Positions 1 through 18,633 of a stretch of 64,000 bases of DNA are shown piece by piece. The position numbers and the translations under genes were made by a program. The notes beneath the pieces are model-generated. The model had not been told where the DNA came from. It saw nothing but the letters and a program-made list of their open reading frames with translations, and ran no database searches. Numbering within the stretch: position 1 is the first letter of the stretch; each line of letters begins with the position of its first letter. This DNA is from an uncultured Selenomonadales bacterium (lineage in GTDB: Bacteria > Bacillota > Negativicutes > Selenomonadales > Selenomonadaceae): NCBI GenBank assembly GCA_900315155.1, contig OMYB01000001.1, positions 62,001-126,000 on the forward strand, given 5' to 3'.

Positions 1-608
1 ATGAGGTCCTGTACATCGCGGCTCAGATAGGTCTGGACATAGGACGAGTAAAAGAGCTGCCAGTCGATGTCGCTTTCATAAAGGGCTGGATAGCTGCCGC
101 GGTGAATCAGCTCCCATATATCGCCATGATGGTGAAAGAAGGCGCGCCGGTGGTCGATGTAGTCTGCGGTGGGAATAAAGGGGTCCGCAAAACTGACGCC
201 ATCGATTTCGCGCATCGAGAGTCCGGACAACTCCATCACTGCGATGCGCCCGGCCAGCGACTCGGATACGTGCTGCATGAGGCGGAAGGACTGCGAGCCG
301 GTCAGGTAGAAAAGGCCCTTTTCCTGCGTGGTATCGCAGGCCATTTTGATGTAGGGAAACAGCCGCTGGATATATTGCACTTCGTCCAGGATGTGTGGAT
401 AGGGATGGTTGCGGAAAAACAGGCCGGGTTCCTCCTGCGCCTGCGTCAGCAGCATCGGATCATCAAAGGTCAGGTATGGCAGGTCCGGATATTGTGCCTT
501 CAGCAGGGTAGACTTCCCCACTTGCCGCGGTCCCGTGACGAGGACCGCCTTGAACGTACGTCCCGCTTTCTGTAAAAAAGGCTCGATATGCCTGTGAATA
601 TACGACAT
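1..608 (-). CDS. AAA+ ATP-binding protein, DUF4143-type (C-terminus cut off by window edge)
   Basis: I translated this by hand; the reading frame is open from the ATG at 608 to the window edge, giving 202 residues. The N-terminal half is a P-loop ATPase: Walker A GPRQVGKST at about residues 26-34, Walker B HILDEVQ at 72-78 and a sensor LTGSQ at about 102-106. This is the layout of the large family of AAA ATPases fused to a DUF4143 domain, about 380-430 aa in full. The cellular role of the family is not established; members are common in bacterial and archaeal accessory genomes. The Shine-Dalgarno GGAGG sits 9-10 bases before the ATG, inside a large inverted repeat. The gene has its own promoter and is monocistronic as far as can be seen. 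Confidence 0.85.
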   Translation of the reverse strand, partial: MSYIHRHIEPFLQKAGRTFKAVLVTGPRQVGKSTLLKAQYPDLPYLTFDDPMLLTQAQEEPGLFFRNHPYPHILDEVQYIQRLFPYIKMACDTTQEKGLFYLTGSQSFRLMQHVSESLAGRIAVMELSGLSMREIDGVSFADPFIPTADYIDHRRAFFHHHGDIWELIHRGSYPALYESDIDWQLFYSSYVQTYLSRDVQDL

Positions 609-610
609 AA

Positions 611-663
611 AAAGCACCTCCGACGAATTTATACTTCAACTATAAATTAGCCAGAGGTGCTTT
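611..663 (-). terminator. Large imperfect palindrome: terminator-like hairpin that also covers the ATPase RBS
   Basis: Outer arms 611-620 and 654-663 are a perfect 10-bp inverted repeat; inner arms 626-633 and 641-648 are a perfect 8-bp repeat around a 7-base loop, with 5/5-base internal loops. Read on the minus strand it ends in a short U tract, so it can terminate transcripts from the oxidoreductase gene at 685-1983. Its downstream arm contains the RBS of the ATPase gene. Confidence 0.65.
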
Positions 664-668
664 GTCAA
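639..668 (-). promoter_or_regulatory. Sigma-70-type promoter of the ATPase gene
   Basis: Minus-strand -35 TTGACA (663-668), 18-bp spacer and -10 TATAGT (639-644). The predicted start is near 632, inside the palindrome, so this transcript lacks the upstream hairpin arm and leaves the RBS free. Confidence 0.65.
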
Positions 669-684
669 GTTTTTCCGTGTTTGC

Positions 685-1983
685 TCACACCTGCGTGTCG
701 TGCAGGACAGGGGCGTGGGCGGCGGAGCCGGGTTTTGTGGATGGGGCTTTTTCGTCGGCCTTTTTCTGGAGCCATTTTTCCATGGCTTCGGCGACTTTCT
801 TGGCGTCTTTGACGGCTGTTACCACGTTGTGGGCGCCGAGGACGACGTCGCCGCCGGAGAAGACGCCTTCGCGGGTGGTTTTGCCCTCCTCGTTGACTTC
901 GATGAGGCCGTGCTCGTCGGTCATGAGGCCGGTCGTCGTGCGGACGACTTTGTCTTTCGGGTCCTGGTTGACCGCGATGATCGTGCTGTCGACGCGCAGG
1001 AGCTCCGGCTCCTCCTCGCCCGTGCAATGCCCGTCCGCATCAAAATGGCGCTGGGCGAGCATCGGGCCGGCTGGTGTGACTTCCGTCGTGTGCTTTGCGT
1101 AGATGAACTCGACGCCATCCGCCTGCGCGTAGTCTGCCTCGCGCTCGCCCGAGGAGACGTCATAGTGGCGTGCGACGAGGTAGACGGTCTCCACGCCCTG
1201 GCGGATGACCGTGCGCGCCGTATCCATGGCGACGTTGTTCGAGCCGATGATCGCGACTGTGCTGCCGAGCTCGAAATCGTCCGGGTTATTCAGATAGTCG
1301 ATGGCATAATGGCAGTTGCCGTTTGTCTCCCCACGGACGCCCAGGCGGCGCGGACGCCAGACGCCCGTGCCGATGAACACGGCCTCGTAGCCGTCTTCGA
1401 ACAGATCGTCGAGATGCAGGCTGCCACCGATCGTCGTATGCGGGCGGATATGCACGCCGAGCATCTTGAGCTTTTGTTCGTACGTATCGAGGATTTCCTT
1501 TGGCAGACGGAACGCCGGGATGCCATAGCGCATCATGCCGCCGATTTTCCCCATGCGCTCAAAGATTGTCACATCGTAACCGTGCTGGGCGAGCTTCGTC
1601 GCGACCGTGAGCCCGGCCGGCCCCGCGCCGATGACGGCGACGCGCTGGCATTTGCGGGCAGCGCGCTTCATGAGACTGTATTTGTGCAGGTAGGTGTTCG
1701 AGATGTAATGCTCGATCGCCGAAATCTGCACCGCACTGCTCCCCCGCTCTTTGCCGAGGATGCAATGCCCCTCACACTGTTTCTCATGATCGCAGACCAT
1801 GGAGCAGACATCGCTCATCGGGTTGTTCTCAAACAGCATGATGCCGGCCTGGTTGCTGCGCCCCGCCAGGAACAGGCGGATCATCTCCGGGATATTGGTC
1901 TGAAGCGGGCATCCGTGCAGCATGCAGAGTGGTTCCTTGCACTGCAGGCATCGGCGTGCCTCGTGGATAACATGGACAGCCAT
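685..1983 (-). CDS. GltD-like NAD(P)-dependent FeS oxidoreductase
   Basis: A 432-aa protein of the glutamate synthase small-subunit family. An N-terminal cysteine-rich region with C12, C15, C20, C25 and C60, C64, C70, C74 would bind two [4Fe-4S] clusters. It is followed by a FAD-binding GAGPAG motif (119-124) and a second nucleotide fold beginning near GSNNVAMDTA. Relatives pass electrons between NAD(P)H and a partner: the GOGAT large subunit, NfnB, or FeS partners of anaerobes. No gltB or nfnA is adjacent, so the partner is unknown. I chose the ATG at 1983 because the AAGGGG box is 7 bases before it; the ATG at 1989 is too close. The C-terminus has a variable tail after the last recognisable helix. 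Confidence 0.8.
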   Translation of the reverse strand: MAVHVIHEARRCLQCKEPLCMLHGCPLQTNIPEMIRLFLAGRSNQAGIMLFENNPMSDVCSMVCDHEKQCEGHCILGKERGSSAVQISAIEHYISNTYLHKYSLMKRAARKCQRVAVIGAGPAGLTVATKLAQHGYDVTIFERMGKIGGMMRYGIPAFRLPKEILDTYEQKLKMLGVHIRPHTTIGGSLHLDDLFEDGYEAVFIGTGVWRPRRLGVRGETNGNCHYAIDYLNNPDDFELGSTVAIIGSNNVAMDTARTVIRQGVETVYLVARHYDVSSGEREADYAQADGVEFIYAKHTTEVTPAGPMLAQRHFDADGHCTGEEEPELLRVDSTIIAVNQDPKDKVVRTTTGLMTDEHGLIEVNEEGKTTREGVFSGGDVVLGAHNVVTAVKDAKKVAEAMEKWLQKKADEKAPSTKPGSAAHAPVLHDTQV

Positions 1984-2040
1984 GGTCATTCCCCTTTTCC
2001 ATCAAAAATTTCCTGCTATCATCATACCCTGTCAGGGGCG

Positions 2041-18576: not shown

Positions 18577-18633
18577 GTCTATTCCCCCTTTTCTGTCATT
18601 ATACCACCCAGAAAAGGGAAGAATCTGAGAAAC

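Follow-up and report, generated by a model that had tools for sequence, protein, structure and literature searches.

The window analysed here, a 64-kb stretch (64,000 nucleotides) of a contig from an uncultured Selenomonadales bacterium, carries near its first positions two co-directional minus-strand genes, a GltD-like oxidoreductase gene and, downstream of it, the gene of an AAA_14-DUF4143 ATPase. A palindrome lies at the start of the ATPase gene and overlaps its predicted promoter and ribosome binding site (RBS). The features of the locus are as follows.

3..608, minus strand: AAA_14-DUF4143 ATPase gene of the PDC-S01 type, with its start codon at 608-606; it is cut by the window edge and encodes 411 aa in the contig (L003:1374-2609, minus strand).
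609..613, minus strand: five consecutive U behind the stem, a weak terminator feature, absent from the terminator scan list.
617..621, minus strand: Shine-Dalgarno sequence GGAGG, read from the sequence, in the start-side arm.
611..663, no strand: two-tier palindrome with its centre at 637, from repeat search, RNA folding and shuffles; conserved before homologues.
631..633, minus strand: predicted transcription start, placed from the position of the -10 element.
639..644, minus strand: -10 element TATAGT, inside the promoter-side arm, 4.5 nt from the palindrome centre.
663..668, minus strand: -35 element TTGACA, from the promoter scan; a TTGAC-type -35 is also found before homologues.
685..1989, minus strand: upstream GltD-like oxidoreductase gene, the source of any read-through RNA.

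The palindrome is the strongest inverted repeat of the window, with a score of 18; the next two, centred on 29024 and 56886, score 15 each, and when the whole window was dinucleotide-shuffled 20 times the best score was again 15. In the inverted-repeat search its arms (611-636 and 638-663) show 85% complementarity, and they are organized in an outer tier, AAAGCACCTC, at 611-620/654-663 and an inner tier, AATTTATA, at 626-633/641-648. Along the minus strand the order of elements is TTGACA (668-663), the arm with TATAGT (644-639), the centre at 637, the arm with GGAGG (621-617), five T (613-609) and the ATG (608-606). TTGACA and TATAGT, separated by 18 nt, form a promoter at 668..639 that agrees with the consensus at 11 of 12 positions. 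The preliminary description of this DNA had reported a two-tier palindrome of 53 bp with the -10 region and the RBS within it, and both statements are borne out; it had also stated that RNA from the internal promoter would omit one arm, which agrees with the predicted start at about 632 and the Shine-Dalgarno sequence in the other arm. Elsewhere in the window, at 18586-18618 on the minus strand, a palindrome CCCTTTTCTG...CAGAAAAGGG with TATAAT in its loop precedes a 205-aa ORF without a Pfam match.

The ATPase matches AAA_14 (E 2.2e-25) and DUF4143 (E 1.1e-42) in Pfam, and the PADLOC model PDLC04790 for PDC-S01 matches residues 1-409 of its 411 (E 1.3e-99). Judged from these matches, it is a probable phage-defence candidate of the PDC-S01 family, which is ranked fourth in frequency among the defences of prokaryotes in passages of PMC12988326; the same passages describe PDC-S01 and PDC-S27 as an ATPase fused to PD-(D/E)-X-K and state that experimental validation of most PDCs is pending. 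The Walker residues G31-K32 and D75-E76 are invariant in 28 aligned homologues including the window gene, and so are D345-E358-K360 of the C-terminal PD-(D/E)XK motif, which are also invariant in a set of 23 sequences. The earlier suggestion that the gene may need tight control is supported by the match to a defence candidate and by the intact nuclease motif. A sequence search for a solved structure of the ATPase found none. A structure model of a 77% identical homologue (L052), built from 23 sequences with a pLDDT of 91.5 and replacing a four-sequence model with a pLDDT of 62.7, places the ATPase first, then a winged helix (residues 208-277) and the C-terminal nuclease motif. Its closest structures, over about 250 residues, are the Walker-type ATPases PABY2304 (2qen, Z 16.0) and SSO1545 (2fna, Z 15.3), both from archaea; it also matches the NLR protein RPP1 (Z 13.7) and AVAST5 (Z 12.1), and the list of Foldseek matches includes Can2-type nucleases. 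The modelled fold thus appears to be the nucleotide-binding and winged-helix fold of PABY2304, SSO1545 and the STAND/NLR ATPases, with the difference that the alignment spans residues ~1-288 and the nuclease part falls outside it.

Homologues of the ATPase occur in 37 of 189 genomes of the family (E<=1e-20) and in 72 of 341 genomes of the class (E<=1e-30). For the upstream set 101 genes were located and 99 analysed, two (L021, L043) being dropped for runs of N; removal of regions at least 85% alike left 80 non-redundant upstream regions, and the remaining relatives were counted separately. For comparison, 112 intergenic control genes were taken from 20 stretches of control DNA; this set superseded a first control of 33 genes, 3 of which had reached p<=0.01. 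An ungapped inverted repeat at p<=0.01 was present in 32/80 homologue regions versus 9/112 controls, and a score of at least 13 in 24/80 versus 2/112. The preliminary description had proposed looking for the same palindrome before homologous ATPases, and what these genes carry is their own versions of the sequence: the arms vary by clade while staying symmetric, reading for example CTAATTTATA in the nearest clade and TAAAATAAAG in other clades. By band of identity, palindromes precede 8/9 genes at 60% or above, 13/42 at 40-60%, 10/20 at 35-40% and 1/9 below 35%. When direct repeats are counted as well, 45 of 79 homologues have a repeat, among them all 9 at 60% identity or above, compared with 10/112 controls. 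A fresh set of viral-contig homologues was fetched afterwards; a scan with a single protein as query gave no matches, and with the alignment as query the scan yielded 35 loci, 30 of them usable after exclusion of four near-duplicates and a partial match (L223), with inverted or direct repeats in 12/30. No significant ungapped inverted repeat was found in 48/80 homologues, several of which show imperfect half-sites by eye, and 34/79 have neither an inverted nor a direct repeat. Several homologues carry tandem palindrome copies at an offset of 52-62 bp, upstream and away from the RBS, and the arms reach 23-26 bp in a few genes, those of L060 being perfect over 26 bp. About 900 bp upstream of one full-length gene, the palindrome and the 5' portion of the gene are present a second time in incomplete form (L030:522-740, genome G121).

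The position of the palindrome relative to the promoter is well conserved. The best -10 element lies within the palindrome in 26 of the 32 palindromic regions, three of these being weak promoter calls of 8/12 (L074, L056, L038), and promoters of at least 11/12 are found in 18/32 palindromic regions versus 5/112 controls, with 0.04 expected in shuffles. Among the 21 regions whose promoter scores at least 10/12, the -10 centre is displaced from the palindrome centre by -4.5 nt in 8 and by -9 to -11.5 nt in 11, so that 19 of them share one of two spacings and only L107 and L110 are exceptions. With homologue start codons assigned by rule, the Shine-Dalgarno sequence is fully inside an arm in 6 of the 32 palindromes, overlaps one in 4 and lies outside in 22; of the 6 palindromes at 74% identity or above, 5 have it inside an arm or overlapping one. 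Because the -10 element is inside in 26/32 at a near-fixed spacing and the Shine-Dalgarno sequence is inside in only 6/32, the palindrome is tied to the promoter and not to the RBS. The conserved feature is the link between palindrome and promoter, and occlusion of the RBS is not conserved.

Folding of the ATPase-strand RNA of the palindrome gave -31 kcal/mol (z -6.25, none of 200 shuffles being as good) with the Shine-Dalgarno sequence paired, and the window hairpin is much more stable in the sense than in the antisense direction (-27.8 versus -18.4). The anatomy of the window thereby fits exactly what the preliminary description had proposed, namely that RNA reading through from the oxidoreductase gene would fold, hide GGAGG and perhaps terminate, and that RNA from the internal promoter, lacking one arm, would be translated. 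A Shine-Dalgarno sequence in an arm or overlapping one is likewise seen in most of the closest palindromes (the 5 of 6 given above), and the Shine-Dalgarno sequence or the ATG is in an arm also in the viral-contig homologues L215, L216 and L222. A similar device is known from IS10 and IS50, where fold-back protects the transposase genes: external RNA folds over the Shine-Dalgarno sequence and RNA from the internal promoter is without the partner arm. Read-through RNA of the window would fold in the same manner and its internal-promoter RNA would likewise lack the partner arm; unlike IS10/IS50, the window gene encodes an AAA_14-DUF4143 protein and not a transposase, the palindrome is not dispersed in the genome, and the cover of the Shine-Dalgarno sequence is not conserved among homologues.

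We consider such insulation at the RNA level unlikely as the explanation of the element. Besides the small number of arms that contain the Shine-Dalgarno sequence, the bias towards the sense strand is absent overall: the sense hairpin is the more stable in 12 of the 32 homologue palindromes and the antisense hairpin in 13, with 7 ties, compared with 58:30 in terminator-like controls, a comparison that leans weakly to a role in DNA. A count of GU versus AC mismatches, tried as a test for selection on RNA or DNA, gave 15:8 in the 32 palindromes and was rejected as uninformative, since 110 terminator-like control hairpins also gave 51:30. Two palindromes are kept behind divergent upstream genes (L074 and L051, each verified by a Pfam match), and insulation from the upstream gene is therefore unneeded there. 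Upstream-gene orientation taken from ORF length was dropped after shadow ORFs mislabelled the window's own gene, and only these two loci were used. Tandem copies and 15-bp direct repeats would be unable to act in this way. Termination of read-through RNA, as claimed earlier, is not borne out by the terminator scan, which does not list the palindrome hairpin, and the stem is followed by no more than five U (609-613), which overlap the start region. The claim that the RBS is free in its own transcript did not hold clearly either: in the predicted native 5' end (from ~632) GGAGG pairs weakly with CCUUUU of the coding region (-14 kcal/mol, z -0.96), no better than in shuffles. Rfam covariance models gave no match at E<=1 in window positions 400-900. 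What stands of the insulation from upstream transcription is that in the closest clade it may contribute as an additional effect; as the main role it is not sustained.

A simpler possibility is that the palindrome is merely the intrinsic terminator of the oxidoreductase gene and overlaps the next promoter by chance. Past the oxidoreductase stop codon there is a stem with five U behind it, as would suit a terminator. Its absence from the terminator scan list speaks against this, as does the DNA behind the same-genus oxidoreductase orthologues (L252, L253, L254), which in all three is unrelated and has neither palindrome nor ATPase gene; the palindrome instead follows the ATPase into other contexts. 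Since it accompanies the ATPase and is absent after the oxidoreductase orthologues, it is not the terminator of the oxidoreductase, and we give this alternative hardly any weight.

Within genomes the palindrome is a single-locus element. Its pattern, allowing up to 3 mismatches, was searched for in 8 genomes that have near homologues, and in 7 of them it is confined to the region upstream of the ATPase; one genome (G148) has two tandem copies, both at the ATPase gene, and another (G007) has one additional 3-mismatch site elsewhere. The occurrence at a single locus would also suit a DNA substrate of the ATPase-nuclease, that is, an extruded hairpin or cruciform that is bound or cut, whether in sensing or as one terminus of a mobile unit. 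The great length that perfect arms reach in some genes (L060, 26 bp), the PD-(D/E)XK motif of the protein, the patchy distribution of the gene (37/189 genomes of the family) and the partial duplicate of palindrome and gene start in L030 are in keeping with such a role. It would not, however, need the near-fixed -10 geometry, and just downstream of the window gene, the one locus inspected by eye, there is no counterpart palindrome; we regard this reading as very improbable.

The near-fixed distance to the -10 element and the extra copies out of reach of the RBS point to a DNA operator. A built-in on/off switch is the most likely role of the palindrome, ahead of an RNA shield as its main function, and we think it somewhat better than an even chance that the palindrome is a dedicated operator over the ATPase core promoter, closed by a DNA-binding protein, the likeliest being the ATPase itself in negative autoregulation. 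In this mechanism the palindrome, covering the stretch from the -10 element to the start of the single-gene PDC-S01 ATPase-nuclease, would have both half-sites occupied by the protein, and the promoter would be shut. Conservation, the near-fixed -10 geometry, occurrence at a single locus, tandem copies and clade-specific symmetric half-sites are the basis for the operator; that a protein binds the palindrome, that the ATPase is this protein and that repression is the effect we infer. The ATPase is proposed as the binder because no neighbouring regulator would then be needed and a winged helix and a nuclease-like domain are present; binding might occur through the winged helix or another part, and a host regulator may take this place instead. 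The outer arms of the window gene are long enough to cover the Shine-Dalgarno sequence too, and read-through RNA would therefore probably be poorly translated as well.

Autoregulation by the putative operator, probable from the sequence comparisons, would resemble that of AbiEi antitoxins, for which negative autoregulation through inverted repeats is reported (PMC7319586). As in AbiEi operators, inverted repeats sit on the promoter of a defence gene; the homologue palindromes cover the core promoter of their own gene (-10 inside in 26/32), and the site is confined to that gene in 7/8 genomes, with the extra 3-mismatch site in G007. The top-scoring inverted repeat among the control genes precedes an AbiEi gene of the window's own genome (L173:195, PADLOC E 3e-61) and serves as an unplanned positive control: this palindrome (L173:~145-194, G000:C11) has 19-bp arms, TATAAT in the loop and the Shine-Dalgarno sequence GGAGGG in an arm, and its architecture is that of the window element. 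The systems differ in that AbiEi, an antitoxin, has a toxin gene as its partner, whereas the window gene stands alone and encodes an ATPase-nuclease.

Several observations weigh against the operator. The ATPase-winged-helix part appears, in the model, to resemble STAND/NLR proteins, and the winged helix of STAND proteins is often regulatory and not DNA-binding. In an exploratory comparison of 31 sequences that ignores kinship, the similarity of half-sites follows residues 259-286 most closely (partial r 0.40) and does not follow the winged helix as a whole (0.07). The homologues without a significant ungapped inverted repeat (48/80), or without a repeat of either kind (34/79), count in the same direction, and arms of 23-26 bp exceed the need of a plain operator; a role in RNA or as a cruciform would explain this length.

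The window protein matches PDC-S01 and the DUF234 paralogues match PDC-S27, and in this both are like the published single-gene candidates. The promoter repeat is a regulatory element additional to the descriptions of PDC-S01 and PDC-S27, as far as these passages go: the passages on PDC-S01 that were consulted, those of PMC12988326 among them, make no mention of promoter repeats, and AAA_14 together with a palindrome turned up in none of the papers searched. According to passages of PMC12988326, PDC-S01 ranks with the most frequent of the predicted defence genes. A cis-element at near-fixed geometry implies local control of the expression of a PDC-S01 gene, and the palindrome offers a ready candidate DNA ligand, by which the DNA specificity and the triggering of the ATPase become accessible with a simple reporter.

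Repeats also accompany related genes. The broad DUF4143/DUF234 set comprised 36 analysed loci after exclusion of four without a P-loop ORF (L155, L160, L165, L167) and of L008 and L149, the window's own locus; the DUF234 set had 27 loci, of which 24 were analysed (L237, L243 and L249 had no P-loop ORF) and 4 of these (L230, L244, L250, L251) are the own-genome L014, L015, L013 and L016 of the broad set. In the window's own genome, inverted repeats at p<=0.01 precede 6 of 11 further AAA_14-type genes (L006, L007, L013-L016), and the elements differ between paralogues, being other palindromes or direct repeats. Two longer DUF4143 ATPase genes of this genome (L011, L012) have strong iteron-like direct repeats, at offsets of 32 bp and 66 bp. 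The DUF234 genes have repeats in 17/24 cases, the best direct repeat mostly at an offset of exactly 15 bp; such 15-bp arrays lie on the DUF234 promoters (for example L228, L232-L234 and the own-genome L013-L016), and several contain AGTTAGTAACTT-like sequences. A tentative extension, to which we give rather less than an even chance, is that the operators are private: each palindrome or 15-bp array would be read by the ATPase-nuclease of its own gene, half-sites would diversify, paralogues would avoid cross-talk and a phage signal would lift repression. One of the paralogues in the own genome (G000:C8:99545-100162, L002/L007) is a truncated ATPase gene with an open frame of 233 aa, and its promoter palindrome has perfect arms of 17 bp.
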